Shown here piece after piece: positions 26,916-42,155 of a stretch of 64,000 nucleotides of DNA. Below the pieces are notes generated by a model. That model did not search any database. It was not told where the DNA came from and saw only the letters and a program-made list of their open reading frames with translations. Every line of letters begins with the position of its first letter. Positions within the stretch are counted from its first letter, which is position 1. The DNA comes from Zoogloea dura (GTDB lineage: Bacteria > Pseudomonadota > Gammaproteobacteria > Burkholderiales > Rhodocyclaceae): NCBI RefSeq assembly GCF_012927165.1, contig NZ_JABBGA010000001.1, positions 372,001-436,000 of the forward strand, written 5' to 3'. A program made the position numbers and the translations under genes.

Positions 26916-26944
26916 TTGCCCGGTGCAAGGCTTTACCGTAGGCT
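26916..26944 (+). promoter_or_regulatory. promoter of the first cobalamin riboswitch transcript
   Basis: TTGCCC (26916-26921) and TAGGCT (26939-26944) with a 17-base spacer lie just upstream of the aptamer. A perfect 6-bp dyad CCTTGC/GCAAGG (26914-26930) overlaps the -35 box, matching a similar dyad at the second riboswitch promoter. Confidence 0.5.
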
Positions 26945-26961
26945 TCGGCCCTGTTCCTCCG

Positions 26962-27148
26962 GGTGCCTGTGTCGCATGTTGCGGCCGGGCCAAACGGGAA
27001 GTCCGGTGAAGCCCCGGTGCGCAGGCACCCAGGCCATTCCGGCGCAGCCCCCGCTGCTGTAAGCCTGACGACTCCGTCCACTCATGCCACTGGGCCCTGC
27101 CCGGGAAGGCCGGACGGAGAAGAACGATGGCGAGCCAGAAGACCGGCC
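26962..27148 (+). ncRNA. cobalamin riboswitch 1 (aptamer)
   Basis: Typical B12-riboswitch core in order: GGTGCC, AAACGGGAAGTCCGGTGA, CGCAGCCCCCGCTGCTGTAA, GCCACTG, GGGAAGGC and GAGCCAGAAGACCGGCC. It very probably binds adenosylcobalamin or a related corrinoid and represses the downstream CobN-like operon. The remaining leader to 27297 has no gene; the 18-base shared motif (27170-27187) lies in it. Confidence 0.95.
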
Positions 27149-27169
27149 CGAGGACCTCCTGTTCGGCCG

Positions 27170-27187
27170 GGCCCCGGGGTGTGGGCG
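27170..27187 (+). promoter_or_regulatory. shared post-aptamer motif, probable expression-platform element
   Basis: GGCCCCGGGGTGTGGGCG is identical at 32750-32767 behind the second riboswitch, at about the same distance from the aptamer (22 versus 20 bases). Here it could pair with the downstream CCACGATCCCCGG to form a hairpin. This suggests a conserved expression platform. Confidence 0.55.
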
Positions 27188-27297
27188 TGGCGAGCGAAGC
27201 GCTCCTCCACGATCCCCGGCCCGTCGCGCCGGCCTCGTCCCGTGCTCTCGTTCCGCTCCGTCTCCGTGTGCCCGCCCTGTTGCGGAATCGCGAAGAC

Positions 27298-30200
27298 ATG
27301 TCCATCACCCTCCCGCTGCGCAGCGCCCCTGTCCGCCGGCTTCTTGCCGCGGCGGCCCTCCTGTATGCCCTGCCGGCGCCGGCCGCCAGCCTGTTCGGAG
27401 TCGTTACCGACCGGGCTGCCCCGGCAGCCGTTGAAGCCGCCCGGCAACACCTCGCCCGCCATCCGGGCGACCGCATCCAGCTGCGCACTCCGACCCAGCT
27501 GATGGCCGCCAGCGACCGCCAGTTGCGCCAGTGGCTGGAAGCCGATGCAGTGCTGGCGGTGTCCGCCTTCGGCGATCCGGCCCGCCGCCTGATCGACGCC
27601 CTGCCGGCCAGTCGTGCCACCACCGTGCTGGCCATGAACGGCGAGCAGCGCCTCAGCCTGCTGAGCCGTAGCCGCGCCGGCAGCCTGGCGACCTTCCCAG
27701 CCGAAACGCTGCGCCAGCTGGCCACCGAGACGCCCGCCACCGAGACGCCCGCCACCGAGGCCCTCGCCGCGGCTGCAACCCACCCGGCCGCCACCCGCTG
27801 GCTCGCCGCCCGGCAGACCTGGCAAGCCGGTGGCAAGGACAACCTGGCCCGTCTGTTCGCCCACCTGCTGGACGGCAAGCCCCTGCCCCCACCCAGCCCC
27901 GAGCCCACCCTGCGCCTGCGCGTCGGCGACCAGGAACGCCTCGACGCCGACGCCTGGAAGGCCGGCCTGCTGCCCGCCGGCCCGGCCCTCGCGGTGCTCG
28001 ACCTGTCCAACATCGAATCCGGCAGCGCCGCCGCCCTGTGTGCCGAATCCCGTCGCCAGGGGCTGCCCTGCGCTGAGGTGCTGACCCGCTGGGGTGGCAG
28101 CTCACGGGAGGCGGTGGAACGCCTGCCGGAACTGCTGGCCCCGGCCCGGCCTGCCGCCTTAGTCGTGATCCAGGACTTCGTGGTGGGCGCCGCCGAGAAC
28201 CGCGAGGCCGTCACCGAAGCCTTCAGGAAACTCGACGTGCCAGTGCTCAAGGCCCTCCGCCTCACCGAGCGCAGCGCCACCCAGTGGCGCCTGTCGGCCG
28301 AGGGCCTGCCTGTCGACTCCGTGCAGTACCGGGTGGCCCTGCCTGAACTGCAGGGCATCGGCCAGCCGGTCGTCGTATCCGCCGTGGGTGCCGGCCGCAT
28401 CGACCCGCAGACCGGCGTCGAGCTACGCCGCACCGAAGCCATCCCCGCCGAGGTGCAGCGCCTGGTGAGCCGCGTGGTGCGCTGGCAGCAACTGCGCGCC
28501 AAGGCCAACGGGGACAAGCGCCTGGCGGTGATCTACTACAACCATCCGCCGGGCCGCCAGAACATCGGCGCCGACAACCTGGACGTGCCGGCCTCGCTGT
28601 TCACCCTGCTGCAGCGCCTCAAGGCCGAGGGCTACGACACCGGCGAGCTGCCCGCCTCCGCCGAGGCCCTGCTCGACCAGATCATGGCCCACGGGGTCAA
28701 CCTGCCGGAGGACAAGACCGCCCTGCGCGAGCTGTCGCGCACGGTGCAGGGCCTCTCCGCCGCCGACTACCGGCGCTGGTTCGGCACCCTGCCGGAGCGG
28801 GTCCAGGGCGAGATGGTGTCCGGCCCCCTCGGCCGCCTGCATGCCGAGGTGCTCGAAGCCGAGCGGGCCGGGGAACGCAGCCTGGGCCGCAAGCGGGTGG
28901 AGTCGGCCATGAAGGAACTCCACCACCTCGCCGAAGGCGCCGACCATCCCCGGCGGGCCGAGGCCATCGCCGGCCTGCGCGAGCTCGAGAACGGCTACCG
29001 CGACTGCCTCGCCGACACCCCGCGGCGCAGCTGTGCCAGCCTCTCCGCCCTGGCCCTGCGCCTGGTCGGCCACGGCATCGAAGGCCTGCGCGGCTGGGGG
29101 CCGGCGCCCGGCAAGGTGATGGTCAGTGACGGCCGCCTGCTGGTGCCCGGCCTGCGCTTCGGCAAGATCTTCGTCGGCCCCCAGCCACCGCGGGGCTGGG
29201 AGGTGGACGAGGAGCTGCTCCACGCCAACACCAGCGTGTCGCCGCCGCACCAGTTCCTGGGCTTCTACCACTGGATCCGCGACGTCTTCCGGGCCGACGC
29301 GGTGGTGCACCTGGGCCGCCATTCCACCTATGAATTCCTGCCCGGCAAGGCCGTCGGCCTGACCGCCGACGACTACCCCAGCCTGATCGCCGCCGATCTG
29401 CCGGGCATCTACCCCTACATCGTTGACGGCGTCGGCGAAGGCATCCAGGCCAAGCGCCGGGGCCTCGCGGTGATCGTCGACCACCTCACCCCGCCGCTCT
29501 CGGCCACGCCGCTCTACGACAAGCTGCTGGAGCTACGCCAGGTGGTGGAGAGCTTCGAGGCCGCCAACAGCGAGAGCCTCAAGGCCCAGGCCGCCCACAC
29601 CATGCGCCAGCAGGTGACGGCCCTCAACCTGCGGGCCGAGCTGGAGGCCTCCATGGCCGACGTGCTGGAGGTGCGCGGCATCGGCTTCGAGGACGCCGAC
29701 GACGACCTGCTGGCCCATGAGGTCGGCCACTACCTCACCAAGCTGCAGGAGAAGTTCATGCCCCACGGCCTGCACGTCTTCGGGCAGGACTGGACGCAGG
29801 AATCCCTCAAGCTGATGGCCGACTCCATGGCCCAGGTGGCCGGCGGCTACGACGACGAAATCGCCCGGCGCCTGGCCGACTCGCCACGCCTAGAGATGGA
29901 AGGCCTGCTCGCCGGCCTGGCCGGCCGCTTCGTGCCGCCGGGCAAGGGCAACGACCCCCTGCGCTCGCCCGACGCCCTGCCCACCGGGCGCAACTTCCAC
30001 GCGGTGGACGGCGACATCCTGCCGACCCGCCTGGGCCAGGCCCTCGGCGCCCGCCTGGCCGGACAGGCCATGGCCCGCCCACGCAAGGCCGTCGGCACCG
30101 CCGACAGCGACGCGGTGATCCTGTGGGCCTCCGACGCGGTGCGCGACGAAGGGGCGATGGTCGCCTTCTGCCTGTCCCTGCTCGGTGCCGAGCCGGTGTG

Positions 30201-31671
30201 GAACGCCCGCGGCATCGTCACCGACGTGCGCCTCCTGGCCGACACGCCGCGGCGTGACGTGATCGTCACCACCTCGGGCCTGTTCCGCGACCTCTACCCC
30301 AACCTCCTCAACCAGATCGACCGGGCCGGGCGGCTGGCCCTGGCCGCCTCCGGTGAAGTGCTGGCGCGCCAGCACCCGGAGTTGGCCGAGGCCCTCGCCG
30401 CCGCCCTGGCGCCCCTCGGCAAGGTCGCGCAGGGCAGCCAGCCCCTCGCCGACAACCTGGCGGCGCAGGCCTGGATGGACCGCACCGCGCAGCTCGCCCG
30501 CAACGGCCTGCCCCCCGTCGACGCTGGCCGGGCCGCCGCGCTGCGCATCTTCGGCGACGCCCCGGGAGCCTACAGCGCCGGCGTGAACCGCCTCGCCGAA
30601 CGCTCCGGCGCCTGGCGCGAGCGCGAGGAGCTGGGCCGCGTCTACCTCAATCGCATGGGCCACGCCTACGGCCTTGACAGTGCCGGTGACGCCGCCCACC
30701 AGGCCTTCGAGACGGCCCTGTCCGGGGTCGCCCGCAGCTACCACGGCCGCGCCAGCAACCTCTACGGGCTGCTCGACAACAACGACGCCTTCGACTACCT
30801 GGGTGGTCTCTCGGTGGGCGTCGAAACCCTCACCGGGCGTCGCCCGGAAGGCCTGATCCTGCAGCACGCCGACCCGGCCCACCCAGCCGTCGAACCCCTC
30901 GCCACCGCCCTGCTGTCGGAACTGCGCGGCCGCTACCTCAACCCCGAGTGGCTCAAGCCCCTGATGAAGCACGGCTATGCCGGCGCCCGCACGATGGGCC
31001 AGGAGTTCCTCGAAAACCTGTGGGGCTGGCAGGTGACCCGGCCCGACCTGATCAAGCAGTGGGCCTGGGACGAGGTCAAGGAAACCTGGTTCGACGACAA
31101 GCAGAAGCTCGGCCTGCCGCGCTTCCTGGCCCAGGGCCACAACGCCCACGTCAAGGCGCAGATGCTGGCCATCTTCATGGTGGCTGCCGAGAAGGGCTTC
31201 TGGCAGGCCGACGAGGCCACCCTGCGCCAGATGGGTGGCGAGCTGGCCCGCCTGGTAGCGAAGAACGGCCTGCCCGGCAGTGGCCACACCGCGCCCAATC
31301 ACCCCATGTGGACCTGGCTCGCGCCACGCATCGACCAGGCTGACGCAGAAGCCCTCGGCGTGGCCCTGGCCCGGGCCCGCGGCGAACTGCCGGCCGCGGC
31401 TGCATCCACACCCGCCATGCCGGCGCCAGGCCCCCGCGCCGCAGCCGCCACCACGCAGAAGGCGGTCGCGGCCGCCGGGCAGAAACCGCCGCCCGCCGCG
31501 GAAGCCCCTCCGCCTCCAGCCGAGACGCCCCCTGCGCGCTACTTCGAACTCCACGCCCGGCCGCCCACCCGCGCGCCGGATCTTCCCGCCGCCCTGCTGG
31601 CCGGCGCGCCCCTGCTGTTCCTGCTCGGGCTCGCCTGGAGCCGGCGCATTCCTTCCCCCAAGAAAGGCTGA
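27298..31671 (+). CDS. secreted, membrane-anchored CobN-like chelatase subunit
   Basis: Predicted 1457 residues, a CobN/magnesium-chelatase H-type protein. The N-terminal Sec signal (MSITLPLRSAPVRRLLAAAA, cleavage near Ala30) and a C-terminal hydrophobic anchor (AALLAGAPLLFLLGLAW, near the end) place the CobN domain outside the cytoplasm, unlike CobN of the aerobic B12 pathway, which is cytoplasmic. CobN features include HLGRHSTYEFLPGKAVGL, GEGIQAKRRG, NLYGLLDNNDAFDYLGG and NPEWLKPLMKHGYAGA. A long Pro/Ala linker precedes the anchor. Upstream in-frame sequence lies in the riboswitch leader, so ATG 27298 is the start. The next two genes encode an ExbB-type protein and DUF2149. The trio resembles the HmuS-HmuU-HmuV layout of haem operons, but this one is B12-riboswitch controlled, so its substrate is likely a corrinoid or tetrapyrrole. 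Confidence 0.85.
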   Translation: MSITLPLRSAPVRRLLAAAALLYALPAPAASLFGVVTDRAAPAAVEAARQHLARHPGDRIQLRTPTQLMAASDRQLRQWLEADAVLAVSAFGDPARRLIDALPASRATTVLAMNGEQRLSLLSRSRAGSLATFPAETLRQLATETPATETPATEALAAAATHPAATRWLAARQTWQAGGKDNLARLFAHLLDGKPLPPPSPEPTLRLRVGDQERLDADAWKAGLLPAGPALAVLDLSNIESGSAAALCAESRRQGLPCAEVLTRWGGSSREAVERLPELLAPARPAALVVIQDFVVGAAENREAVTEAFRKLDVPVLKALRLTERSATQWRLSAEGLPVDSVQYRVALPELQGIGQPVVVSAVGAGRIDPQTGVELRRTEAIPAEVQRLVSRVVRWQQLRAKANGDKRLAVIYYNHPPGRQNIGADNLDVPASLFTLLQRLKAEGYDTGELPASAEALLDQIMAHGVNLPEDKTALRELSRTVQGLSAADYRRWFGTLPERVQGEMVSGPLGRLHAEVLEAERAGERSLGRKRVESAMKELHHLAEGADHPRRAEAIAGLRELENGYRDCLADTPRRSCASLSALALRLVGHGIEGLRGWGPAPGKVMVSDGRLLVPGLRFGKIFVGPQPPRGWEVDEELLHANTSVSPPHQFLGFYHWIRDVFRADAVVHLGRHSTYEFLPGKAVGLTADDYPSLIAADLPGIYPYIVDGVGEGIQAKRRGLAVIVDHLTPPLSATPLYDKLLELRQVVESFEAANSESLKAQAAHTMRQQVTALNLRAELEASMADVLEVRGIGFEDADDDLLAHEVGHYLTKLQEKFMPHGLHVFGQDWTQESLKLMADSMAQVAGGYDDEIARRLADSPRLEMEGLLAGLAGRFVPPGKGNDPLRSPDALPTGRNFHAVDGDILPTRLGQALGARLAGQAMARPRKAVGTADSDAVILWASDAVRDEGAMVAFCLSLLGAEPVWNARGIVTDVRLLADTPRRDVIVTTSGLFRDLYPNLLNQIDRAGRLALAASGEVLARQHPELAEALAAALAPLGKVAQGSQPLADNLAAQAWMDRTAQLARNGLPPVDAGRAAALRIFGDAPGAYSAGVNRLAERSGAWREREELGRVYLNRMGHAYGLDSAGDAAHQAFETALSGVARSYHGRASNLYGLLDNNDAFDYLGGLSVGVETLTGRRPEGLILQHADPAHPAVEPLATALLSELRGRYLNPEWLKPLMKHGYAGARTMGQEFLENLWGWQVTRPDLIKQWAWDEVKETWFDDKQKLGLPRFLAQGHNAHVKAQMLAIFMVAAEKGFWQADEATLRQMGGELARLVAKNGLPGSGHTAPNHPMWTWLAPRIDQADAEALGVALARARGELPAAAASTPAMPAPGPRAAAATTQKAVAAAGQKPPPAAEAPPPPAETPPARYFELHARPPTRAPDLPAALLAGAPLLFLLGLAWSRRIPSPKKG

Positions 31672-31674
31672 TCC

Positions 31675-32124
31675 ATGCACGACATCGTTTCCCTGGCCTG
31701 GCTGCACCAGGCCGTCACCTGGCTCCTCGCCCCGGCCCTGCTGGCCCTGGTGGCCGCCTGCGCCATCGCCCTCGCCGAAGCGGGGCTGGCCGTCGGCGAA
31801 CGGCTGTGGGGCCTCCAGCGCCTCGCCGCCTCCGGCGATCTGCCACTGATCCAGCGCATCGCCCGCCACCGGCTGGAGCGGGCCGATCTGCTGGCGCGCA
31901 TTCCTCCCATGCTGGGCCTGATGGCCACCATCATTCCTCTCGGACCGGGCCTCGCCGCTCTCGGCCAGGGCAACCCGGGCGAGCTGGCCAGCGCCGTCAC
32001 GGTGGCCTTCGACGCCACCGTGCTGGGCCTCGTCGCCGGCATCGGCGGGCTGGTGGTCGGCAAGTTGCGCCGCCGCTGGTACGAGGAGCTGCTGGAGACC
32101 CTGGAGCTGGAGGACGACGCATGA
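31675..32124 (+). CDS. MotA/TolQ/ExbB-type proton channel subunit
   Basis: Predicted 149 residues with three hydrophobic helices (N-terminal ~15-35; ~77-97 around IPPMLGLMATIIPLGPGL; ~108-128 around AVTVAFDATVLGLVAGIGGLV), the ExbB/TolQ core fold. The gap after the CobN-like stop is 3 bases. It probably uses the proton gradient to energise the neighbouring DUF2149 and CobN-like proteins. It is much shorter than full TolQ/ExbB, as usual for HmuU-type members. Confidence 0.85.
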   Translation: MHDIVSLAWLHQAVTWLLAPALLALVAACAIALAEAGLAVGERLWGLQRLAASGDLPLIQRIARHRLERADLLARIPPMLGLMATIIPLGPGLAALGQGNPGELASAVTVAFDATVLGLVAGIGGLVVGKLRRRWYEELLETLELEDDA

Positions 32125-32468
32125 AGGCGGCCCATCCCCAAAAAAAGCCCCCGCGCAAGCGCCTGCGCCTCTACTCGCGCCTCGATGCCCGCTTCGACGA
32201 CCGGGACGAAGACCCGCGGGCCAGCCTGGTGAATCTGGTGGATGTGATGCTGGTCTTCGCCTGCGGCCTGCTCGCGGCGCTGGCCGCCAGCACCCAGGGC
32301 GCCCTGTCCACACCGAGGCCGGTGGACAAGGGCCGCGCCATCGAACGCCCGGCCGACGGTCAGGGCCAGGCCGGCGCCGGCATGGACCGGGTCGGTGAGG
32401 TATTCCGCGATCCGAAGACCGGCCAGCTGATCCTGATCGAGCCTGCTGCGGGCAAGACTGCACCCTGA
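32121..32468 (+). CDS. DUF2149 protein (ExbD/HmuV-like partner)
   Basis: Predicted 115 residues with one transmembrane helix (VNLVDVMLVFACGLLAAL, ~42-59) and a small extracytoplasmic domain ending GEVFRDPKTGQLILIEP, typical of DUF2149. It is translationally coupled (ATGA) to the ExbB-like gene. By analogy with ExbD/HmuV it should form a proton-driven complex with the upstream channel protein. Confidence 0.85.
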   Translation: MKAAHPQKKPPRKRLRLYSRLDARFDDRDEDPRASLVNLVDVMLVFACGLLAALAASTQGALSTPRPVDKGRAIERPADGQGQAGAGMDRVGEVFRDPKTGQLILIEPAAGKTAP

Positions 32469-32498: not shown

Positions 32499-32527
32499 TT
32501 GCACCGTCCCGGTGCATGCGGTTAGAC
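32499..32527 (+). promoter_or_regulatory. promoter of the second cobalamin riboswitch transcript
   Basis: TTGCAC (32499-32504) and TTAGAC (32522-32527) are separated by 17 bases. A dyad TGCACCG/CGGTGCA (32500-32516) overlaps the -35 box, as at the first riboswitch. Confidence 0.55.
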
Positions 32528-32540
32528 TGCGCCGCGTCAC

Positions 32541-32730
32541 AGGTGCCGAGCCCGCTTTCCGCGGGCAAGGTGAAACGGGAAGTCCGGTGAAGTCGTGAGC
32601 CAGCCCTCACGCCCATTCCGGCGCAGCCCCCGCTGCTGTAAGCCTGACAACTCTGCTTTACGCCACTGCGTGCCCAGCACGCGGGAAGGTTGGCAGACGA
32701 GGAAGAAGGCGAGCCAGAAGACCGGCCTCT
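32541..32730 (+). ncRNA. cobalamin riboswitch 2 (aptamer)
   Basis: Same core elements as riboswitch 1: AGGTGCCGAG, AAACGGGAAGTCCGGTGAAG, CGCAGCCCCCGCTGCTGTAA, GCCACTG, GGGAAGG and GAGCCAGAAGACCGGCC. It precedes the cbiM-led cob gene cluster and probably represses it when B12 is abundant. The leader from 32731 to 32967 contains no gene, only the shared motif at 32750-32767 and a hairpin GGGCGGAACC/GGGTTCGCCC downstream of it. Confidence 0.95.
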
Positions 32731-32749
32731 GACGTTGTGGTGTGGTATT

Positions 32750-32967: not shown

Positions 32968-33594
32968 ATGCACATCGAACCGGGGTACGTCGCCAATGCC
33001 AAGATCCTCGCCGCCAATGCCGGCGCCATCGCCCTGCTGGGGAGCCAGTCGGTCCACCTCCTGCGCCAGCCGCAGCTGATCGTCCGCAGCCTGCTCGCCG
33101 CGGTGTTCTTCAGCCTGGCGATGCAGGCCTTCCACCTGCGGGTCGGCCCATCCGAGCTGCACTTCCTCGGCGCCATGCCGATCTACCTGTCCTTCGGCTT
33201 CCTGCCCGCCCTGTTTGGCTTTGCCGTCGGGCTGCTGGTGCAGGGCCTGCTCTTCGAGCCGACCGATCTGGTCCACCTGGGCATCAACTTCCTGTCCCTG
33301 GCCCTGCCCCTGGTCGTCGTGCATGCCACCCTCGGCAAGCGCCTCGGCGCCCTCTCGGTGCGCAGCATCCTCAAGCTGGACGCGGCTTATTACAGCGGCG
33401 TGACCCTGATGGTGGGCTTCTGGCTGGCCATCGGCGAGGTCGCCACCCCTGTCTCTGCCTGGGCTGCCTTCGCCCTGTCCTACGCGGCCATCGTGGCGAT
33501 CGAACCGCTGGTCACCCTGCTCGTCCTGCGCACCCTGCACGGCCGGCCGGCACACCCGGTGCTGCGCCTCTGCTTCGCCGCCCGGGCGCACTGA
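32968..33594 (+). CDS. cbiM: CbiM-like energy-coupling-factor substrate-binding component
   Basis: Predicted 208-residue membrane protein with about 6 hydrophobic segments. It begins MHIEPGYVANAKI, the CbiM/NikM N-terminus whose Met1-His2 bind Co or Ni in solved relatives. Its presence first in the B12-riboswitch operon points to cobalt uptake. No cbiN, cbiQ or cbiO is nearby, so ATPase and transmembrane partners must be supplied elsewhere or it functions alone. CobM follows 3 bases later. Confidence 0.85.
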   Translation: MHIEPGYVANAKILAANAGAIALLGSQSVHLLRQPQLIVRSLLAAVFFSLAMQAFHLRVGPSELHFLGAMPIYLSFGFLPALFGFAVGLLVQGLLFEPTDLVHLGINFLSLALPLVVVHATLGKRLGALSVRSILKLDAAYYSGVTLMVGFWLAIGEVATPVSAWAAFALSYAAIVAIEPLVTLLVLRTLHGRPAHPVLRLCFAARAH

Positions 33595-33597
33595 AGC

Positions 33598-34404
33598 ATG
33601 AGCGGCAAGATCTGGTTTGTCGGCGCCGGGCCGGGTGATCCCGAGCTGCTGACCCTCAAGGGCCGCCGCCTGCTCTCCGAGGCCGGCGCGATCCTGTACG
33701 CCGGTTCGCTGGTCAACCAGGCGGCCACCCTGTTCTCGCCGCCCGGTTGCGAGATCCGCGACTCGAAGGACATGACCCTGGAGGAGATGACCGCCTGGCT
33801 GCTCGAACAGGCTGCCCGGCACGCCACGGTGGTCCGCCTGCAGACCGGTGACCCCGGCCTTTACGGGGCGCTGCAGGAACTCACCCGGCCGCTCAGCGCC
33901 GCCGCGATCGAATGGGCGGTGGTGCCCGGCGTGTCCTCGGCCTTCGCCTCGATGGCCGCCGCCGGCGAGAGCATGACCCTGCCTGAAGTCACCCAGACGG
34001 TGATCCTGACCCGCGTCGAGGGCCGCACCCCGATGCCGCCAGGAGAGTCCCTCGAAGCCCTGGCCGCCCATGGCAGCACCCTCTGCATCTTCCTGTCGAT
34101 CACCCTGCTGCACGAAGTCCAGCGGGCCCTGCGTAACGCCGGCTGGGCCGAGGACTCGCCCATGCTGGTGGTGCAGAAGGCCAGCTGGCCCGGCGAGGAG
34201 AAGATCGTCCGCGGCACCCTCGCCGACATCAAGCGGCGCTGCCAGGACGCGAAGATCGCCAGCCAGGCCATGATCGTCGCCGGCCCCACCCTGAGCGCCG
34301 CCGACTGGCCGACCCTCGCCCGCTCCAAGCTCTACGACCCCGCCTTCGGCCACCGCTTCCGCAAGGCCAGCCTGCCCACCGCCTCCCCGGAGATGACCCC
34401 ATGA
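33598..34404 (+). CDS. cobM: precorrin-4 C11-methyltransferase
   Basis: Predicted 268-residue SAM-dependent tetrapyrrole methylase. It methylates C11 of precorrin-4 (CbiF in the anaerobic route). IWFVGAGPGDPELLTLKG near the N-terminus is the family motif, with RLQTGDPGLYGAL and EWAVVPGVSSAFASMAAA. Its stop overlaps the cbiX start (ATGA). Confidence 0.95.
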   Translation: MSGKIWFVGAGPGDPELLTLKGRRLLSEAGAILYAGSLVNQAATLFSPPGCEIRDSKDMTLEEMTAWLLEQAARHATVVRLQTGDPGLYGALQELTRPLSAAAIEWAVVPGVSSAFASMAAAGESMTLPEVTQTVILTRVEGRTPMPPGESLEALAAHGSTLCIFLSITLLHEVQRALRNAGWAEDSPMLVVQKASWPGEEKIVRGTLADIKRRCQDAKIASQAMIVAGPTLSAADWPTLARSKLYDPAFGHRFRKASLPTASPEMTP

Positions 34405-35252
34405 ACGACTCAACCCTGCTGCTTGTCGGCCACGGCTCCCGCAACCGGGACGGCAACAACGAGATCCTCAGCTTTGCCGCCCAGTGGCGCGAGCGCCACG
34501 TCGGCCGGCGCATCGACGTGTGCTTCATCGAGCACGCCGAGGTGCTGCTCGACGAAGGCCTCGACCGTGCCGCCGAAGGCAGCCGCCACGTGGTGGTGCT
34601 GCCCTTCATCCTCAACGCCGCCGGCCACGTGAAGATGGAACTGCCGGCCGCCGTCGAGGCCGCCCGCCAGCGCCACCCGGGGGTGCGCTTCAGCTGCACC
34701 CGCCACCTCGGCATGGGCCGCGAGATCCTCGCCGTGCTGCAGGCTCAGCTCGACGCCCTGATGCATGCCCTGGCCGTGCCCGACCCCCAGACCACCGGGG
34801 TGATCCTGCTCGGCCGAGGCTCATCCGACGCCGGTGCCAACGGCGAACTGGCGCGCATGGCACGCTGGCTGTTCGAGGACAACGAGCACGAGCTGGTGGA
34901 CCTGGCCTTCACCGGCGTCACCTGGCCACGCCTCGAGACCGTGGTACAGCGCCAGGCGCGCCTGGGCATGGCACAGATCTGCATCGTGCCGGTGTACCTC
35001 TTCAGCGGCGTGCTGATCGATCGCATCCAGGCCCAGGTGGCGCGCCTGCGCACCCAGTACCCGCAGATCGCCTTTGCCCTGGGCGGGCACTTCGGTTTCG
35101 ACCGGGGCATCTTCGACCTCCTCGACACCCGCGTCGCCGGCGCCGACCTGGCCGAGGGCGGGCTGCTCGAATGCGACGGTTGCAAGTACCGCCAGGCCGC
35201 CGAGGCGGAGCACCTGCACCACCACGGCCACGAACACCACGCCCACGCATAG
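34401..35252 (+). CDS. cbiX: sirohydrochlorin cobaltochelatase
   Basis: Predicted 283 residues with two tandem CbiX domains (each beginning near VGHGSRN and an ILLGRGSSD-type loop). It inserts cobalt into sirohydrochlorin, marking the early-cobalt, anaerobic pathway. The active-site His region GHGSR is intact, and the C-terminus has an unusual His-rich tail (HLHHHGHEHHAHA) that may buffer cobalt. The gene overlaps cobM by 4 bases. Confidence 0.93.
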   Translation: MNDSTLLLVGHGSRNRDGNNEILSFAAQWRERHVGRRIDVCFIEHAEVLLDEGLDRAAEGSRHVVVLPFILNAAGHVKMELPAAVEAARQRHPGVRFSCTRHLGMGREILAVLQAQLDALMHALAVPDPQTTGVILLGRGSSDAGANGELARMARWLFEDNEHELVDLAFTGVTWPRLETVVQRQARLGMAQICIVPVYLFSGVLIDRIQAQVARLRTQYPQIAFALGGHFGFDRGIFDLLDTRVAGADLAEGGLLECDGCKYRQAAEAEHLHHHGHEHHAHA

Positions 35253-35262
35253 GCAGACATCC

Positions 35263-35940
35263 ATGTCCACCTTCAACACCGTCACCGAACAACTCACCGC
35301 TGCCGGGCGGGCCATCGAGCATGACTCCTTCGCCATCATCGACTGGGAGGTGGGCCACCACGGTTACCGGGCCGAGCAATGGCCGGTGGTGCGCCGCATG
35401 ATCCACGCCAACGCCGACTTCGAGTTCAACGGCCTCACCGCCTTCCACCCGGACGCCATCAACGCCGGGGTGGCGCGCATCCTGGCCGGTGGCGCGCCGG
35501 TGGTGGCCGACGTGGAGATGATCTGCGTCGGCCTGTCGGCGCCGCGCCTGGGCCACTTCGGCATGCACACCCACCAGTTCATCTCCGACCCGGACGTGAT
35601 CGCCGCCGCCCGCGCCGAGGACACCACCCGCGCCGTGCAGGCGATCCGCAAGGCCCACCGCCTGGGCCTGCTCGACGGTGCCCTGGTGGGCATCGGCAAC
35701 GCGCCCACTGCGCTGATCGAGCTGGTCCGCCTGATCCGCGAGGAAGGCGCCCGGCCGGCCCTGGTGATCGGCATGCCGGTGGGCTTCGTGTCGGCCGCCG
35801 AGTCCAAGGACCTGCTGATGGACGTGGCCGACGTGCCGTGGGTGGCGATCCGCGGCCGCAAGGGCGGCTCGACCCTGGTGGTGGCGGCCCTCCACGCCCT
35901 GCTTGGCCTGGCCGAAGAGCGCCAGCGCCAGGACGCCTGA
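35263..35940 (+). CDS. cobH: precorrin-8X/cobalt-precorrin-8 methylmutase
   Basis: Predicted 225 residues, moving the C11 methyl to C12 to form hydrogenobyrinic or cobyrinic acid (CbiC in the anaerobic route). Signatures: ANADFEFNGLTAFHPDAINAG with the active-site His, DVEMICVGLS and VIGMPVGFVSAAESK. The start at 35263 is supported by the preceding cbiX stop 10 bases upstream; in-frame upstream sequence overlaps cbiX and is not conserved. Confidence 0.94.
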   Translation: MSTFNTVTEQLTAAGRAIEHDSFAIIDWEVGHHGYRAEQWPVVRRMIHANADFEFNGLTAFHPDAINAGVARILAGGAPVVADVEMICVGLSAPRLGHFGMHTHQFISDPDVIAAARAEDTTRAVQAIRKAHRLGLLDGALVGIGNAPTALIELVRLIREEGARPALVIGMPVGFVSAAESKDLLMDVADVPWVAIRGRKGGSTLVVAALHALLGLAEERQRQDA

Positions 35941-35948
35941 GGATTGCC

Positions 35949-37100
35949 ATGACAGCCGGCCACGTCCTCCCCGAAAAAGTCCGCAAGGGCGACCCCAAGC
36001 GGGATCGCGGCAACCGCACGGGCTTTTCCACCGGCGCCAACTCCGCTGCCGCCGCAGCCGCCGCCACCCTCGGGCTGGTGCACGGGCGGGTGCCGGAGGC
36101 GATCGAGTGCGTGCTGCCCAACACCCAGCGGGTGCGCTTCTCCATCACCGACGGGTGGACCGACGGCCTGCGGGCCCGGGCGGTCAGCATCAAGGACGCC
36201 GGTGACGACCCCGACGCCACCAACGGCGCCCATCTCACCGCCGAGGTCGAGCGCCTGCCCGGCGCCGCTGGCGAGATCGTGCTGCGCGGCGGCCCCGGCG
36301 TGGGTGTGGTGACCAAGTCCGGGCTGGGCCTGGAGGTCGGCGGCCCAGCCATCAACCCGGTGCCCCGCCGCAACATCGCCGACAACGTGCGGGCCGCCGG
36401 CGCCCCCATCCTGGCCGCCGGCGACGGCCTCGCCGTGACCATCTCGGTACCGGGTGGCGAGGTGATGGCCACCAAGACCCTCAACGCCCGGCTTGGCATC
36501 CTGGGGGGGATCTCCATCCTCGGCACCACCGGCATCGTGCGGCCCTACTCCACCGCGGCCTTCCGGGCCAGCGTGGTGCAGGCCGTCGACGTGGCCGCGA
36601 ACCAGGGCCAGACCAGCGTCGTGTTCACCACCGGCGGGCGCACCGAGAAGTGCGCCATGCGCTGCTTTCCGGAGCTGGACGAAGCCTGCTTCGTGCAGAT
36701 GGGCGACTTCGTCAAGGCCGCCTTCCAGACCGCGGTGAAGCAGGGCATGCAGCACATCATCGTCGGCGCCATGGTCGGCAAGCTCACCAAGATCGCCCAG
36801 GGCCTGTCGGTCACCCACGCCTGGCGCGAGGAGGTGGACCGGGAGCTGATCGCCGCCGCCGCCGCCGAGGTGGGCGCGCCGCCCGACCTGGTGGACGAGA
36901 TCCGCGCCGCCGAGACCGCCCGTTTCGCCGCCGAACGCCTGGCCGAGCTGGACCTCGCCGTGGCCTTCCACCGGGCCCTCGCCGCCCGCGCCATCCACAG
37001 CCTGCGCCAGCGCTACCCCGGCCCCCACCGCCTCACCGTGCTCGCCTGCAATTTCGAGGGCGTGCCCATCGTCACCCTGGAAGAACATGAACTCGCCTGA
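35949..37100 (+). CDS. cbiD: cobalt-precorrin-5B (C1)-methyltransferase
   Basis: Predicted 383 residues, CbiD, the C1-methyltransferase unique to the cobalt-early pathway. It has the family N-terminus FSTGANSAAAAAA, NMGNTLKYSPI-like TNGAHLTAEVERL, PRRNIADNVRAAG and the C-terminal GMQHIIVGAMVGKLTKIAQG. Its last 14 bases overlap cobL. It marks this as the anaerobic branch of B12 synthesis. Confidence 0.94.
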   Translation: MTAGHVLPEKVRKGDPKRDRGNRTGFSTGANSAAAAAAATLGLVHGRVPEAIECVLPNTQRVRFSITDGWTDGLRARAVSIKDAGDDPDATNGAHLTAEVERLPGAAGEIVLRGGPGVGVVTKSGLGLEVGGPAINPVPRRNIADNVRAAGAPILAAGDGLAVTISVPGGEVMATKTLNARLGILGGISILGTTGIVRPYSTAAFRASVVQAVDVAANQGQTSVVFTTGGRTEKCAMRCFPELDEACFVQMGDFVKAAFQTAVKQGMQHIIVGAMVGKLTKIAQGLSVTHAWREEVDRELIAAAAAEVGAPPDLVDEIRAAETARFAAERLAELDLAVAFHRALAARAIHSLRQRYPGPHRLTVLACNFEGVPIVTLEEHELA

Positions 37101-38400
37101 ACCCTGCCGCCTGATCGGCATCCTCGACGACGGCTGGGCCGGCCTGGGCGATCTGGCCCGCGCCCACCTGATTGAATGTGACCTGTTAATCGGCGCCCGC
37201 CGCACGCTTGAACTCGTTGCCCTCCGCCTCCCCTCCCGGGTGGAACAACGGGCGATGGACGGCCTTCTCGGCCGTGTCCCCGAGTGGGTCCGTGCGGCGC
37301 GGGGCGCCGGCCAGCGCTGCGTCGTGCTGGCCACCGGCGACCCCCTGTGCCACGGCATCGGTGCCTTCCTGATCGATAAACTCGGCGCCGGCCAGGTGGA
37401 GGTGCTGCCTGCCGTGTCCACCCTGCAGTTGGCCTTCGCCCGCCTCGGCAAGCCCTGGCAGGCGGCGCGTATCGTCTCGGTGCACAGCCGTGACGCAGGC
37501 GAATGGCAGCCCGGCGCCGGGCCCGACCACGGGCTCTACCCCCTGCTGCAGGCCGCCGCAGAAGCCACCACCGCTGCGCCGCTGATGGGGGTGTTCACCA
37601 GTCCCGCCAACAACCCGGCGCGCATCGCCCGCGCCCTGATCGCGGCGGGTTACGGCGAGGACTTCCGCCTGTCCGTGGCGGCCTGCCTGGAGCTGCCGGA
37701 GGAGTCGGTGCACGCGGACCTGAGCCTCGCCGACGCCGCCGCCCGCGAATTCGCCGATCCCAACATCGTCGTGCTGGAGCGCTGCGGCCCGCCGGACAGC
37801 CGGCCGCGCTTCGGTTTCGATGACGCCGACTTCGTGCAGCGCACCCCCGAGAAGGGCCTCATCACCAAGCAGGAAGCCCGTGCCGTGTCCCTGGCCCGCC
37901 TCGGCCTGCGCAGTGACAGCGTGGTCTGGGACATCGGCGCCGGCTCCGGCTCGGTGGGGCTGGAAGCCGCCCGCCTGGCCCCCCGCGGGCATGTCTGGGC
38001 GATCGAGAAGAACCCCGGCGACGCCGCCAATGCGCGCGAGAACGCTCGCCGCTTCAGGGCCCACAACTACAGCCTCAGTGAAGGCAAGGCGCCGGAAGGC
38101 CTCGACGCCTGGCCCGACCCGGATGCCGTCTTCATCGGCGGCTCCGGCGGCGAGCTGGCCGAACTGATCCGCCTGGTGCTGGCCCGCCTGCGCCCGGGCG
38201 GCCGCCTGGTGATGAACTTCGTGACCCTGGAGAACCTGGCCACCGCCACCACCACGCTGACTGAAGCCGGCGCCAGCTGGGACGTGATCCAGCTCCAGGC
38301 CGCGCGCAGCCAGCCCATCCTCGCCATGCACCGCCTCGCCGCCCAGAACCCGGTGTGGATCGTCTCCGCGGCAAGCCCGGCTCAAACCCAATCCATCTGA
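37087..38400 (+). CDS. cobL: precorrin-6Y C5,15-methyltransferase (decarboxylating), CbiE-CbiT fusion
   Basis: Predicted 437 residues. The N-terminal ~210 residues are a CbiE-type methylase (tetrapyrrole methylase fold, VVLATGDPLCHGIGAFL), and the C-terminal ~200 a CbiT-type methyltransferase (VVWDIGAGSGSVGLEAARL, SAM loop). The fusion methylates C5 and C15 and decarboxylates the C12 side chain. It overlaps cbiD by 14 bases and abuts cobI (stop 38400, start 38401). Confidence 0.93.
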   Translation: MNSPEPCRLIGILDDGWAGLGDLARAHLIECDLLIGARRTLELVALRLPSRVEQRAMDGLLGRVPEWVRAARGAGQRCVVLATGDPLCHGIGAFLIDKLGAGQVEVLPAVSTLQLAFARLGKPWQAARIVSVHSRDAGEWQPGAGPDHGLYPLLQAAAEATTAAPLMGVFTSPANNPARIARALIAAGYGEDFRLSVAACLELPEESVHADLSLADAAAREFADPNIVVLERCGPPDSRPRFGFDDADFVQRTPEKGLITKQEARAVSLARLGLRSDSVVWDIGAGSGSVGLEAARLAPRGHVWAIEKNPGDAANARENARRFRAHNYSLSEGKAPEGLDAWPDPDAVFIGGSGGELAELIRLVLARLRPGGRLVMNFVTLENLATATTTLTEAGASWDVIQLQAARSQPILAMHRLAAQNPVWIVSAASPAQTQSI

Positions 38401-39177
38401 ATGATGAGCACGATGACCCCCCGTCCTCCCGGGCGCCTGATCGGCGCCTCCCTCGGCCCCGGCGATCCGGCGCTGATCACCCGCCGGGCCTGGGATGCCC
38501 TGCAGTCCGGAGCCCGCTGGCTCTACCCGGTCAAAAAGGCCGAGTCGGCGTCCTACGCCCTCGGCATCGTCGAGCGGGGCGGCCTGCACGTGCCCGCTGA
38601 CGCGGAAGCCCTGGTCTTCCCGATGACCCGCGACCCGGTCGCCCTGGCCCGGGCCTGGTCGCGTGCCGCCACCCGCACGGTCGAGCTGCTGCGGGAAGGC
38701 CGCGACCTGGTGTTCCTGGTGGAAGGAGACGCCTCCACCTTCGCCACCTTCGGCCACCTGGCCCGGGTGGTGCGGGAGCTAGCCCCCGAGGTCGAGGTGG
38801 ACACCATCCCCGGCGTCAGCGCCTTCGCCGCCGCGGCCGCCATCACCGCCACCCCGCTGGCCGAAGAGGACGAGACCTTCGCGGTGATCCCGGCCGCCTA
38901 CGGTATCGAGGTGATCGCCCGCCTGATCGACGACTTCGACACCCTGGTGCTGCTCAAGGTCAAACCGCTGCTCGACGAGCTGATCGAGCTGCTGCGCCAG
39001 CGCGGCCTGTTGCAGCACGCCTGCTTCATCGAGAAGGTCGGCGCCCCCGAGGAACGCATCGTCCATGACGTGGCCGGCCTGGCCGGCGAGAAGGTCAATT
39101 ACCTGTCCCTGCTGCTGGTCCGCAACCCGGAGCGCGTACGTGGCGAGCTGCGCCGTGGCTGCAGGAAGCGGCTGTAA
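38401..39177 (+). CDS. cobI: precorrin-2 C20-methyltransferase
   Basis: Predicted 258 residues, a tetrapyrrole methylase adding the C20 methyl (CbiL in the anaerobic route). Motifs: LIGASLGPGDPALITRRA, LVFLVEGDASTFATFGHL and VDTIPGVSAFAAAAA. Starts at 38401, 38404 or 38413 are possible. The palindromic repeat begins 78 bases after its stop. Confidence 0.93.
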   Translation: MMSTMTPRPPGRLIGASLGPGDPALITRRAWDALQSGARWLYPVKKAESASYALGIVERGGLHVPADAEALVFPMTRDPVALARAWSRAATRTVELLREGRDLVFLVEGDASTFATFGHLARVVRELAPEVEVDTIPGVSAFAAAAAITATPLAEEDETFAVIPAAYGIEVIARLIDDFDTLVLLKVKPLLDELIELLRQRGLLQHACFIEKVGAPEERIVHDVAGLAGEKVNYLSLLLVRNPERVRGELRRGCRKRL

Positions 39178-39254
39178 GCGCGCTATGGGGACGTGCAAGG
39201 GCGGCTTCAGCCGCCCGCGGGTGTCAGATCAAAGCTGGTGTGCCTCTACTGGGC

Positions 39255-39849
39255 GGCTTTCCGTTTTTCAGCGTTGGATTGGCCGGGAGTTCGCCCCGGC
39301 GGGCGACCTCCTTTCTTGCTTCGCCAAGAAAGGAGGCAAAGAAGGCGACCCGCCTCCCCGGTCGTCCGCTGCGCGGACGACTCCCCTGCGCTGCTCACGC
39401 CAGGCGGCCGGCGCGGAACTCGCCCTTCGGGCTCAAACAGCCGCGCCGGACTACCCCGCCTGCCGTTCCGCTGCTCGGCGGGTCGGAACGGGCTTTTCGC
39501 AAACACCGCGCGTTTGCTGAAGCAGGGCGTGATGATCAACGCACAAGCAGAACCCCAGCGTCTCGCATCCACCGGTCTTTCCGTAGAGGCTTGGTGCTTG
39601 CTGAAAGCCCGTTCTGACCCGCCGAGCAGCACAGCAGCGGGCGGGGCTTTCCGGCGCGGCTGTCTGAGGAGGCGTAGCCGACGAGTTCCGCGCCGGCCGC
39701 CCGATGCGAGCAGCGCAGGGGAGTCGTTCGCAACGCGAACGACCGGGGAGGCGGGTCGCCTTTCTTGCTTACTTCTTTGGCGAAGCAAAGAAGTGAGTCG
39801 CCCGCCGGGGCGAAATCCCGGCCAATTCAACGCGGAAAAAGGGAAAACC
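39255..39849. repeat. ~0.6 kb palindromic intergenic repeat, copy 2 (inside the cob operon)
   Basis: Ends GGCTTTCCG (39255) and near-complementary GGAAAACC (39841-39848). Long complementary arms as in copy 1; the left arm matches the right arm of copy 1 and the centre matches the reverse complement of copy 1's centre, so this copy is inverted relative to copy 1. It separates cobI from cbiG without visible loss of either. No credible gene in 39178-39922. Confidence 0.9.
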
Positions 39850-39922
39850 GACCAGACAAAAGGCACAAACAGCGGGCTGAAGCCACCCCTACAACACCCT
39901 CCATATCACCCATCACACCCCC

Positions 39923-40693
39923 ATGACCCAGCACCTGCCCTTTCCCTCCGAACGCATCGCCGTGGTGTCGATCACCCGCCACGGCATCGCCCTGGCCGGC
40001 CACGTCATTGCGGCCCTGCCCGGCGCCCGGCTGTTTGCGCCGGAGAAGTTCGCCGCTGAGGCCGAGGCCGCAGCACCCGGCGCCAACGCCTGCTACGCAG
40101 GCAAGACGGCCGAGCAGATCCCCATCCTGTTCTCCAACTTCGATGGCATCGTCGCCATCGTCTCCCTCGGGGCGATGGTGCGGCTGGTGGCGCCCTACCT
40201 GGCGCGCAAGGAGTCCGACCCCGGCGTGGTGGTGATCGACGAGGCCGGGCGCTTCGTGATCCCCATGCTGTCCGGCCACCTGGGCGGCGCCAACGCCCTG
40301 GCCGGCGTGCTGGCCGGGGCCCTCGACGCCACCGCGGTGCTCACCACCGCCTCCGATGCCCGCCAGACCCTGGCGGTGGACCTGCTCGGCCGCGAGCTGG
40401 GGTGGACCTTCGAGGCCAGCCACGACGAGATCGTGCGGGCCAGCGCCGCCGTGGTGAACGACGAGCCGGTGGCCCTCGTGCAGGAAGCCGGCAGCCCCGA
40501 CTGGTGGGCCCGCCATGCCAACGGCCGCAATGGCCCGCTGCCGGGCAATCTGTTCCCCTTCTCGCGCCTCGAGGACGTGGAACCGGAGCGCTTCGGCGCC
40601 GTGCTGTGGATCAGCCACCGGGATCTGCCCGCCGCCCTGGCCCCACGCCTGGCCGGCAAACGGGTGATCTACCGGCCGCCGGTGAGCCCATGA
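39923..40693 (+). CDS. cbiG: cobalt-precorrin-5A hydrolase, N-terminal and central parts
   Basis: Predicted 256 residues. CbiG opens the ring-contraction lactone and releases acetaldehyde from cobalt-precorrin-5A. Residues ~8-245 carry the CbiG N and mid domains (VSITRHGIALAGHV, GIVAIVSLGAMVRL, VIPMLSGHLGGANALA). The C-terminal CobE-like domain found in full-length CbiG is in the next gene, which overlaps by 4 bases, so the protein is split. The ATG at 39923 is the first after the repeat. Confidence 0.9.
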   Translation: MTQHLPFPSERIAVVSITRHGIALAGHVIAALPGARLFAPEKFAAEAEAAAPGANACYAGKTAEQIPILFSNFDGIVAIVSLGAMVRLVAPYLARKESDPGVVVIDEAGRFVIPMLSGHLGGANALAGVLAGALDATAVLTTASDARQTLAVDLLGRELGWTFEASHDEIVRASAAVVNDEPVALVQEAGSPDWWARHANGRNGPLPGNLFPFSRLEDVEPERFGAVLWISHRDLPAALAPRLAGKRVIYRPPVSP

Positions 40694-41160
40694 GCGCAGC
40701 CCGGCCGCCCGAAGGCGCTCGCACCGAGGCCCGCCAGGGCGGAGGTCATCCATTCAGCAGCGTCGGGCCCATCGCCCTCGGCATCGGCTGCGACCGGGGC
40801 ACGCCGGCGTCCACCCTGGCCTGGGCCGTGGTGGATGCCCTGGCGGCGTGCCAGGCCAGCCTGACGGACGTTGTCGCGGTGGCCAGCATCGACCTGAAGG
40901 CCGATGAACCGGGGCTGCACGCCCTGGCCCGCTGGCAGGGCTGGACGATCCGCTTCTACCCGGCTGCCGAGCTGGCGGAGGTGCCCGTCCCGCACCCCTC
41001 CGAAACCGTCCGCAAGTACACCGGCACGCCTTCGGTCTCCGAAGCCGCCGCCCTGCTCGCGGCCGGCACCGACATGAGCGGCTTACTGCTCGAAAAACAC
41101 AAATACCGTGGCCCCGACGGGCGCCATGCCACTGTTTCGATTGCGAGGATTCCCCGATGA
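40690..41160 (+). CDS. cobE: CobE/CbiG C-terminal domain protein
   Basis: Predicted 156 residues that match the CobE/CbiG C-terminal domain: GIGCDRGTPASTLA, VASIDLKADEPGLHALA, VPHPSETVRKYTGTPSVSEAAAL. Overlaps cbiG by ATGA, consistent with a split CbiG. The first ~25 residues are non-conserved and possibly disordered. Its stop overlaps the cobJ start. Confidence 0.88.
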   Translation: MSAARPPEGARTEARQGGGHPFSSVGPIALGIGCDRGTPASTLAWAVVDALAACQASLTDVVAVASIDLKADEPGLHALARWQGWTIRFYPAAELAEVPVPHPSETVRKYTGTPSVSEAAALLAAGTDMSGLLLEKHKYRGPDGRHATVSIARIPR

Positions 41161-42155
41161 ACGACATCACCACTCCCACTTCCACCCCGGGTCGCATCAT
41201 GCTGGTCGGCCTTGGGCCGGGCAGCCACGCGCACCTGTCGGCCCGCGCCCGCGCCGCCATCGCCGAAGCCGACACGGTGATCGGCTACGTCACCTACATC
41301 CGCCTGGTGGCCGACCTGCTGGAGGGCAAGGAGGTCATCCGCAAGTCCATGACCGAGGAGCTCGACCGGGCCGTGGAGGCCTTCGAGCGCGCCCGTCAGG
41401 GCAAGCGGGTGGCCCTCATCTCCTCCGGCGACGCCGGCGTGTACGGCATGGCCGGGCCGACCTTCGAGGTGCTGTTCCAGGCCGGCTGGACGCCGGAGTC
41501 GGACATCGAGGTCGAGATCATCCCCGGCGCCTCGGCGATCAACACCTGCGCCGCGCTGGTCGGCGCGCCGCTGACCCACGACTTCTGCGCCATCTCCCTG
41601 TCGGACCTGCTGACCCCCTGGCCGGTCATCGCCCGCCGCCTGGAGGCGGTGGCCTTCTCCGACTTCGTGGTGGCCTTGTACAACCCCAAGAGCGGCCGCC
41701 GCACCCGCCAGATCGTCGAGGCGCGCCGCCTGTTCCTGCGCCACCGCAGCCCGGACACCCCGGTGGCCATCGTCAAGTCGGCCTACCGGCCCAAGCAGCG
41801 GATCGAATTCACCACCCTCGAGAAGATGACCGAGTGCGACATCGGCATGCTGTCCACGGTGCTGATCGGCAACTCCAGCACCTTCATCCGCCACGGCCTG
41901 ATGGTCACGCCGCGGGGCTACGCCAACAAGTACGACGTGGACAGCGGCACGGCGCACGAGGGCGAGAAGCCCGGCCGCTCCCTGAGCAGCGGCCTCACCG
42001 GCTGGCTGGCCGGGATCCATGCCAGCGGGCTCGGCGCGGCCGAGCTGGCACGCATCCACCGCCTGCCCGAGGACTACATCGCCGCCCTGCTGGCCGAGCC
42101 CCTCGAATCCCCCGAGCCGCTGTCCGAAGCCGCCGGCGAGGAGGCCGGGGCATGA
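41157..42155 (+). CDS. cobJ: precorrin-3B C17-methyltransferase
   Basis: Predicted 332 residues. The methylase core spans ~13-260 (VGLGPGSHAHLSARARAAI, SSGDAGVYGMAGPTFEVL, IPGASAINTCAALVGAPLTHDF). It performs ring contraction with C17 methylation (CbiH in the anaerobic route). About 60-70 residues beyond the usual end form a C-terminal extension of unknown role. It is coupled to the ferredoxin gene (ATGA overlap). Confidence 0.93.
   Translation: MNDITTPTSTPGRIMLVGLGPGSHAHLSARARAAIAEADTVIGYVTYIRLVADLLEGKEVIRKSMTEELDRAVEAFERARQGKRVALISSGDAGVYGMAGPTFEVLFQAGWTPESDIEVEIIPGASAINTCAALVGAPLTHDFCAISLSDLLTPWPVIARRLEAVAFSDFVVALYNPKSGRRTRQIVEARRLFLRHRSPDTPVAIVKSAYRPKQRIEFTTLEKMTECDIGMLSTVLIGNSSTFIRHGLMVTPRGYANKYDVDSGTAHEGEKPGRSLSSGLTGWLAGIHASGLGAAELARIHRLPEDYIAALLAEPLESPEPLSEAAGEEAGA

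Follow-up and report, generated by a model that had tools for sequence, protein, structure and literature searches.

A cobalamin riboswitch-led CobN-like protein with ExbB-type and DUF2149 partners in Zoogloea dura: a distinct chelatase-type clade with a probable role in corrinoid salvage

The window analysed here is a stretch of 64,000 nucleotides of the Zoogloea dura contig NZ_JABBGA010000001.1 (67% G+C; the genome comprises 5.83 Mb in 83 contigs), in which a cobalamin riboswitch precedes three adjoining genes, hereafter the triad, encoding a CobN-like protein, an ExbB-type channel protein and a DUF2149 protein. Judged by its sequence relatives, the CobN-like protein is a member of a distinct clade, apart from CobN and BchH. 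It appears to represent a new branch within a family whose one known activity so far is the stripping of iron from haem. Gene context and regulation make a role of the triad in corrinoid salvage probable. As the best reading of its function we put forward, tentatively, a proton-energised, periplasmic, corrinoid-processing chelatase.

A riboswitch-led triad with a probably periplasmic CobN-like protein

All window features described below lie on the forward strand. Riboswitch 1 (RF00174, 26944..27165) scored 92.2 bits in cmscan (E 1.5e-21) against a gathering score of 31.5 bits, and is followed by the genes for the CobN-like, class-I-chelatase-type protein (27298..31671, 1457 residues; PF02514, 814 bits), the ExbB/TolQ/MotA-type channel protein (31675..32124, 149 residues; PF01618, 31.4 bits, above cut-off) and the HmuV-like, possibly ExbD-like DUF2149 protein (32121..32468, 115 residues; PF09919, 35.7 bits, above cut-off). 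In the open reading frames of the window these genes lie 3 nucleotides apart or overlap. The ATG at 27298 was taken as the start of the CobN-like gene because a longer reading frame from 27127 would begin within riboswitch 1. Both the riboswitch and the directly adjacent order of the three genes were as the original prediction had described them.

The N-terminus of the CobN-like protein, MSITLPLRSAPVRRLLAAAALLYALPAPAAS, resembles by eye a Sec signal (residues 1-30, 27298..27387), and Ala29 is invariant in 15 aligned rows. Its C-terminus consists of a Pro/Ala-rich linker, a hydrophobic, presumptive transmembrane helix (residues 1430-1448, 31585..31641, by eye) and Arg/Lys residues, in line with the exported and anchored protein that had been foreseen. 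Relatives were taken from two sets, in which loci carry L numbers. The first set held 17 window-type loci from the genus and the class, and 19 genomes with that of Z. dura included; the named set held the best 80 of 290 confirmed relatives from a genome scan, a selection by match quality that was not drawn at random. Apparently eight of these loci also belong to the first set, and the two sets are therefore not independent. In the named set, the searches for CbiC/CobH and for CobT each covered 49 genomes. Relatives have tails of the same kind, in which a linker rich in Pro/Ala or in Gln is followed by a helix and positive residues, and by crude thresholds 57 of 77 full-length relatives passed for N-terminal hydrophobicity and 73 of 77 for the C-terminal helix. 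Cys248 and Cys258, conserved in 78/78 rows, suggest a pairing that would suit a periplasmic disulphide. We therefore regard it as very probable, from these sequence features, that the CobN-like body faces the periplasm.

The protein matches the PF02514 profile of the class I chelatase superfamily and has its fold, as modelled for residues 29-1228 (predicted local distance difference test score, pLDDT, 79.9; predicted template modelling score 0.76). An ordinary late aerobic cobaltochelatase, cytoplasmic, working with CobS and CobT and equipped with a misread N-terminus, would also account for the PF02514 match, for the database name CobN and for the CobB and CobO genes found as neighbours. We consider this hardly credible, and the least probable of the alternatives. 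The signal and the tail helix recur across relatives, the own genome encodes the early-insertion enzyme CbiX, and the protein missed both NCBIfam CobN equivalog cut-offs (585.8 against 1619 bits and 517.1 against 822.05 bits), as it did that for BchH. Moreover, CobT was not found in the Z. dura genome, nor in 16 of the 19 first-set genomes (Z. dura counted) or 42 of the 49 named genomes, being present in three of the former (two above cut-off) and seven of the latter. The class I chelatases CobNST and ChlHID are described as cytoplasmic and ATP-driven (PMC7689651, as excerpted), whereas the window protein is predicted to be exported and anchored, with proton-channel partners.

The CobN-like protein defines a distinct clade

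In a tree of 38 rows, the 21 window-type rows formed one side of a branch with a Shimodaira-Hasegawa-like approximate likelihood ratio test value of 100. On the other side stood five CobN rows, BchH and 11 rows of what we call the C9 type, after contig C9 of the own genome. The tree was built by a quick method, its long branches were flagged by the tool, and HmuS and locus L066 lie outside it. The clade so delimited also has, by alignment, its own hallmarks, namely an insertion of about 90 residues and the motifs GRHST and DN[ND]DxFD. The insertion (about residues 510-598, 28825..29091, from alignment and model) is helical in the structure model and carries His543 and His550, each present in 74/78 rows. 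The aligned stretch that contains it measures 102-122 residues in the 78 clade rows as opposed to 10-15 in 17 CobN, BchH and C9-type rows; by phmmer coordinates, about 45 residues of HmuS correspond to about 132 of the window protein here. GRHST, which belongs to the active-site motif described next, was found in 76 of 77 relatives.

The putative active-site motif HLGRHSTYEFLPG (29308..29346), recognised by its conservation among relatives, contains His671, His675 and Glu679. His675, Glu679, Glu714 and Asp1163 are each conserved in 78/78 rows of the clade alignment, and in alignments Glu679 and Glu714 correspond to the residues of ChlH that are altered in the PDB variants E625K and E660D/W. 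The triad was complete in 17/17 first-set loci and in 77/80 named loci, the remaining three stopping at contig ends. Hosts of the named loci include Zoogloea, Dechloromonas, Massilia, Duganella, Pseudoduganella, Methylobacillus, Methylotenera, Methyloversatilis, Lysobacter, Azotobacter, Pseudomonas, Marinobacterium and Steroidobacter, among others, as well as Nitrospirota and Myxococcota bins.

Comparison with HmuS and other CobN-like systems

The original prediction had pointed to a likeness to the HmuS-HmuU-HmuV layout. HmuS-HmuU-HmuV belong to the haem de-chelatase operon of Bacteroidota (PMC12583661, PMC10100974, PMC13227078, PMC10434189, each as excerpted), and the likeness holds, in that both systems combine an extracytoplasmic, membrane-anchored protein of the CobN fold with an ExbB-type and a DUF2149 protein, HmuV being annotated as DUF2149 in PMC10434189. 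The His538/Glu577 dyad of HmuS is kept in the window protein as His675/Glu714, with a spacing of 39 in both and in 78/78 rows, as mapped through ChlH and CobN alignments and the residues given in PMC12583661.

In other respects the two differ. The HmuS motif LSLDHxxEFMGG with the axial His1209 does not occur in the window clade, which has an Asp at that place, as in CobN; the window protein reads LLDNNDAFDYLGG there, and DN[ND]DxFD was found in 77/77 relatives. Further haem ligands of HmuS, Met79 and His254, are situated at its head/neck. The Met-rich domain IV insertion of HmuS is likewise missing, the clade-specific insertion sitting elsewhere. The corresponding region of the window protein has 141 residues with 6 Met, and in five CobN rows it has 199-258 residues (HmuS being outside this alignment). 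No gene lies between those for the CobN-like and ExbB-type proteins, where hmuT would be, and HmuY was not seen, as judged from gene adjacency and not from HmuY or HmuT profiles. Finally, hmu is under iron control, in contrast to the B12 riboswitch and corrinoid genes found here. The expectation that the protein would cluster with the HmuS/CobN families thus held for PF02514 membership, and failed in so far as the HmuS motif and Met-rich insertion are absent and the clade stands apart from CobN; clustering with HmuS was judged by motif and insertion only.

A plain haem de-chelatase, that is an HmuS orthologue which happens to stand under a B12 riboswitch, is therefore very unlikely. The shared layout and dyad are set against the loss of LSLDHxxEFMGG and of the Met-rich insertion, the presence of an insertion of the clade's own and the corrinoid genes nearby, and domain III scored higher against CobN (146.7 bits) than against HmuS (100.3 bits). 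Of the original prediction, which named a corrinoid or tetrapyrrole metal-handling machine, the corrinoid side is supported over a haem role.

Related arrangements have been described. An Hmu-like operon behind a B12 riboswitch is reported from Bacteroides fragilis, with a role in cobalamin metabolism guessed at (PMC10100974, as excerpted); it shares with the window the Hmu-like gene set and the cobalamin riboswitch and differs in having two HmuR copies and a host among the Bacteroidota, the comparison with the window clade being by description only. For BtuS, the third type related to CobN, an excerpt of PMC6460266 quotes Rodionov et al. 2003. In Pseudomonas aeruginosa PAO1, the Zur-controlled, zinc-starvation-responsive operon PA1921-PA1925 unites TonB receptor, CobN-like and Exb-type genes (PMC4542158, as excerpted), kinds of gene that also occur together in the C9 copy described next; PA1923 was compared by description only.

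A second CobN-ExbB-DUF2149 system of the own genome lies on contig C9 (L005:9603-16700). It comprises a TonB receptor (by similarity), a CobN-like protein of the separate C9-type clade, ExbB and DUF2149, and resembles PA1922-PA1925 as described in print. No cobalamin riboswitch was found at the 13 C9-type loci examined, three of which miss part of the gene or of the upstream stretch. Two C9-type proteins, L064 and L167, have DHPFE at the position of the HmuS DHxxE, where relatives have DDPFQ, and this sequence change might mark haem users among C9-type proteins. A third arrangement in the genus, L066, has the order riboswitch (87.9 bits), TonB receptor, ExbB, DUF2149 and CobN-like, and its CobN-like protein is about equally distant from the window type and the C9 type.

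Riboswitches and B12 genes accompany the triad

A same-strand cobalamin riboswitch was found within about 8 kb upstream in 73/80 named loci, in 72 by our model R1 and in L122 by Rfam, a count that includes matches several genes away. For those 72, the nearest riboswitch, measured from the start of the tblastn match, lay at most 600 nucleotides away in 43, at 0.6-3 kb in six and at least 3 kb away in 23. For many of these 23 loci the gap holds a BtuB-like receptor along with further B12 genes, and riboswitch and triad presumably share one operon there. Rfam backed the five weaker R1 matches that were rechecked (L139, L146, L148, L151 and L153), and the total of 73 also holds five weak R1 matches of 33-40 bits that stand without an Rfam recheck (L129, L145, L147, L149 and L154). 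No upstream same-strand riboswitch was found in L124, L130, L133 (where one lies on the opposite strand), L135, L138, L140 and L152. In the first set, 15/17 loci had a riboswitch in front, the two without being L038 and L039.

At least one corrinoid gene occurred within 8 kb, on either strand, in 40/80 named loci as against 0/10 C9-type control loci. The genes were CobO (25 loci), CobB (24), CobU (17), BluB (16), CobC (15), BtuF (14) and CbiB (12), with a BtuB-like receptor in 26/80 and BtuC in 14/80. Pfam and NCBIfam scans of representatives identified FecCD permease, ABC ATPase, Peripla_BP_2, CobO, CobB, BluB, CobU, CbiB and PepSY_TM proteins. The representative BtuB-like receptor had TIGR01779 (TonB-B12) as its best match, at 469 bits under the cut-off of 599.7. 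A second kind of receptor, adjacent to the PepSY gene, was siderophore-type in the one representative scanned (TIGR01783, 227.5 bits, above the cut-off of 223.5) and is preceded by a riboswitch of its own in several loci.

Some neighbourhoods had further features. A hydrophobic protein of about 190 residues, which close to its start carries a stretch resembling LTRG(H/S/N)HF, was present in 15 copies in 9/80 loci (L111 at 5489-6058, L110, L112, L113, L115, L120, L125, L133 and L149); the one copy scanned had no Pfam or NCBIfam match, and we regard the protein as a candidate B12-linked membrane protein. On a plasmid of Spirosoma oryzicola (L160) two cobalamin riboswitches diverge. One precedes genes for CobB, for a CobN that shows no evident signal and for a putative cobaltochelatase, together with late B12 genes; the other precedes a CcdA-annotated protein and a TonB receptor.

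Most of the examined hosts appear to depend on corrinoid salvage

CbiC/CobH is required in both pathways of corrin ring synthesis. It was found in 4/49 named genomes, whose completeness is not given, and in 9/19 first-set genomes (all nine, and no others there, also having CbiD), against a base rate of 30/274 for the class. Set against this base rate, the counts show no tie of the triad to ring synthesis. With the marker in only 4/49 named genomes, most of these hosts seem incapable of making the corrin ring. This scarcity points to corrinoid salvage, which the majority of the examined hosts apparently rely on. The presence of CobB beside the triad in hosts that do not make the ring hints that corrinoids not yet amidated may be taken up.

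These counts also bear on the direction of the reaction. A periplasmic cobalt de-chelatase could be envisaged that, like HmuS with haem, takes cobalt out of corrinoids or other cobalt tetrapyrroles and supplies CbiM and CbiX with Co(II) from which new corrin could be made. The next operon of the window does hold CbiM and CbiX genes behind riboswitch 2, and HmuS is a proven de-chelatase of the same fold (PMC12583661). However, with CbiC/CobH not found in 45 of the 49 named genomes, most of these hosts apparently could not put the released cobalt to use in corrin synthesis, and the destruction of corrinoids under B12 scarcity, when the gene is expected to be on, makes little sense; in addition, the second axial His of HmuS is not present. 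Cobalt removal is disfavoured on the first two grounds, and we hold this alternative to be improbable.

The ExbB-type and DUF2149 pair as a putative motor

Thr85 and Thr115 of the ExbB-type protein are invariant in 48 rows and Asp113 is conserved in at least 90%. With its profile match and conserved membrane threonines, the protein has the marks of the MotA/TolQ/ExbB channels, and the two threonines presumably correspond to Thr148 and Thr181 of E. coli ExbB. In the DUF2149 protein, Asp41 of the single membrane helix is invariant in 46 rows, and the sequence around it reads N(L/F)xDxMLVF in 18 aligned rows. We take these conserved residues to be positions of the ExbB/ExbD proton path. The DUF2149 model consists only of a helix (34-60) and a beta hairpin (pLDDT 66), and a sequence search of the PDB gave no match to this protein.

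We read the pair as a motor for whichever anchored protein has its gene ahead of theirs, in this case the chelatase-type body, a reading suggested also by the Sel1-like module described next; coupling of the motor to the CobN-like protein appears somewhat more likely than not. The pair may serve other proteins too. In the genus, a module recurs in which ExbB-type and DUF2149 genes come after that of a secreted Sel1-like protein whose tail combines a Pro-rich linker with a C-terminal helix (L037:9297-11320, in the own genome on contig C5 at about 113.3-115.3 kb; L047, L055, L056 and L076); it adjoins an aldehyde dehydrogenase-like gene (by eye), and no CobN was found in these stretches. A tail module shared by C9-type CobN and Sel1-like proteins was also considered and was not accepted. 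Its loose motif was present in 11/13 C9-type and 3/5 Sel1-like tails against 173/2600 shuffles, but in 0/77 tails of the window clade. Among the matches listed, a C9-tail profile gave four of the five Sel1-like proteins E values of 0.0003-0.8, the best shuffled tail reaching 0.004. The sharing between C9-type and Sel1-like tails is suggestive only.

The pair could instead energise TonB and the BtuB-type receptor as their private motor, with the CobN-like protein as a non-catalytic, periplasmic corrinoid carrier that hands B12 from the receptor to BtuF. A TonB-like gene directly follows the BtuB-like receptor in L040 and L046 (with a TonB_C profile match for L040 only), the BtuB-like receptor and BtuC counts given above fit such a role, and excerpts of PMC12583661 and PMC10100974 assign one of this kind to HmuU and HmuV. 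A mere carrier would not need the chelatase catalytic positions, which are invariant in 78/78 rows, and the triad remains complete where no receptor is near. In addition, one BLAST search with both TonB proteins found no relative in the 80 named loci, a weak point as TonB diverges fast. We consider this alternative possible, if on the unlikely side, and the strongest competitor of the periplasmic chelatase.

A proposed mechanism for corrinoid processing

In the proposed chelatase mechanism, the triad would form an inner-membrane machine that faces the periplasm, its expression being released by the riboswitch when B12 is short. Corrinoids would enter the periplasm through BtuB-type or related TonB receptors, perhaps along with a cobalt chelate, and there the CobN-like body would bind the corrinoid within a class I chelatase cleft. 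The ExbB-type and DUF2149 proteins, as a proton-driven motor of the ExbB/ExbD type, would take hold of the CobN-like protein at its C-terminal helix and drive the cleft, in place of the ATP-driven CobS/CobT, which could not work outside the cytoplasm. The reaction would take place at the metal centre of the corrinoid, as cobalt insertion or metal exchange, opening the way for otherwise unusable corrinoids to be salvaged by BtuFCD and the enzymes of the late pathway. Of the reactions considered, insertion or exchange of metal in scavenged corrinoids fits best, and yet it is a doubtful part of this scheme. Less likely still is its most specific form, a periplasmic cobaltochelatase driven by the proton motive force, in which an ExbB/ExbD-type motor replaces the CobST ATPase (of the AAA+ class) and cobalt is put into cobalt-free or wrongly metallated scavenged corrinoids, which would enable hosts incapable of corrin ring synthesis to make B12 nonetheless; the siderophore-type TonB receptor and PepSY protein of some clusters would then supply the cobalt.

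Several findings weigh against a motor-driven salvage chelatase. Twenty-four of the 80 loci, some of them on cut contigs, have no scored partner within 8 kb, and 4/49 is not far below the class base rate for CbiC/CobH, which speaks for no special bond to hosts that do not make the ring. Zoogloea dura itself makes the corrin ring and has CbiX. The copy on a plasmid of Marinobacter sp. M3C (L158) lacks the tail helix, with neither an ExbB nor a DUF2149 gene annotated beside it, and may be decayed or a sign that the CobN-like body acts alone. The TonB-like genes of L040 and L046, as mentioned above, suit a pair that serves TonB instead. Purified HmuS, moreover, turned haem over by itself (PMC12583661, as excerpted), and by analogy a chelatase of this fold need not have a motor. 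The L158 copy was observed within a riboswitch-led string of TonB receptor, BtuFCD-like, CobB, window-type CobN, CobO, CobQ and BluB genes.

According to PMC12583661, large parts of the class I chelatase superfamily have no known function, and one such branch is here delimited by its own motif and insertion and tied to B12 through regulation and gene context. If a proton motor does drive the chelatase, it would be a second power source, after ATP, for tetrapyrrole metal chemistry, and the reaction a new step of B12 salvage. HmuV has been called apparently diagnostic of haem transport (PMC10100974, as excerpted), and the window-type triads speak against this use. The chemistry and structure of HmuS, the B12-riboswitch Hmu-like operons of Bacteroides fragilis and the name BtuS are already in print. 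A search of the open-licence literature found no description of the clade or of its insertion and salvage context, and none of a chelatase driven by protons.

Other features of the window

The genes immediately upstream of the triad are presumably Ada- and AlkA-like, the profile scans having covered genes from 26900 onwards. Downstream, riboswitch 2 (32524..32744; cmscan, 104.7 bits) heads a cob operon that begins with a CbiM-type cobalt uptake protein (32968..33594; PF01891, 101.8 bits) and continues with corrin ring synthesis genes identified by Pfam (33598..42155), in the order tetrapyrrole methylase, CbiX, CbiC, CbiD, a CbiET-like fusion, more methylases and CbiG. Between a methylase gene and CbiG, a stretch of about 745 bp (39178-39922) holds no gene in the list of open reading frames used. 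The last gene of the operon encodes a TonB-dependent receptor (42515..44644; PF00593 and PF07715). The triad had originally been placed next to a TonB receptor gene, and this has to be corrected, in that the only receptor identified nearby is this one, about 10 kb downstream at the close of the operon behind riboswitch 2. Triad-adjacent receptors of the same family do occur in relatives, and the window receptor shares 70-73% identity with those directly downstream of the triad in L048, L049, L051, L053 and L057.

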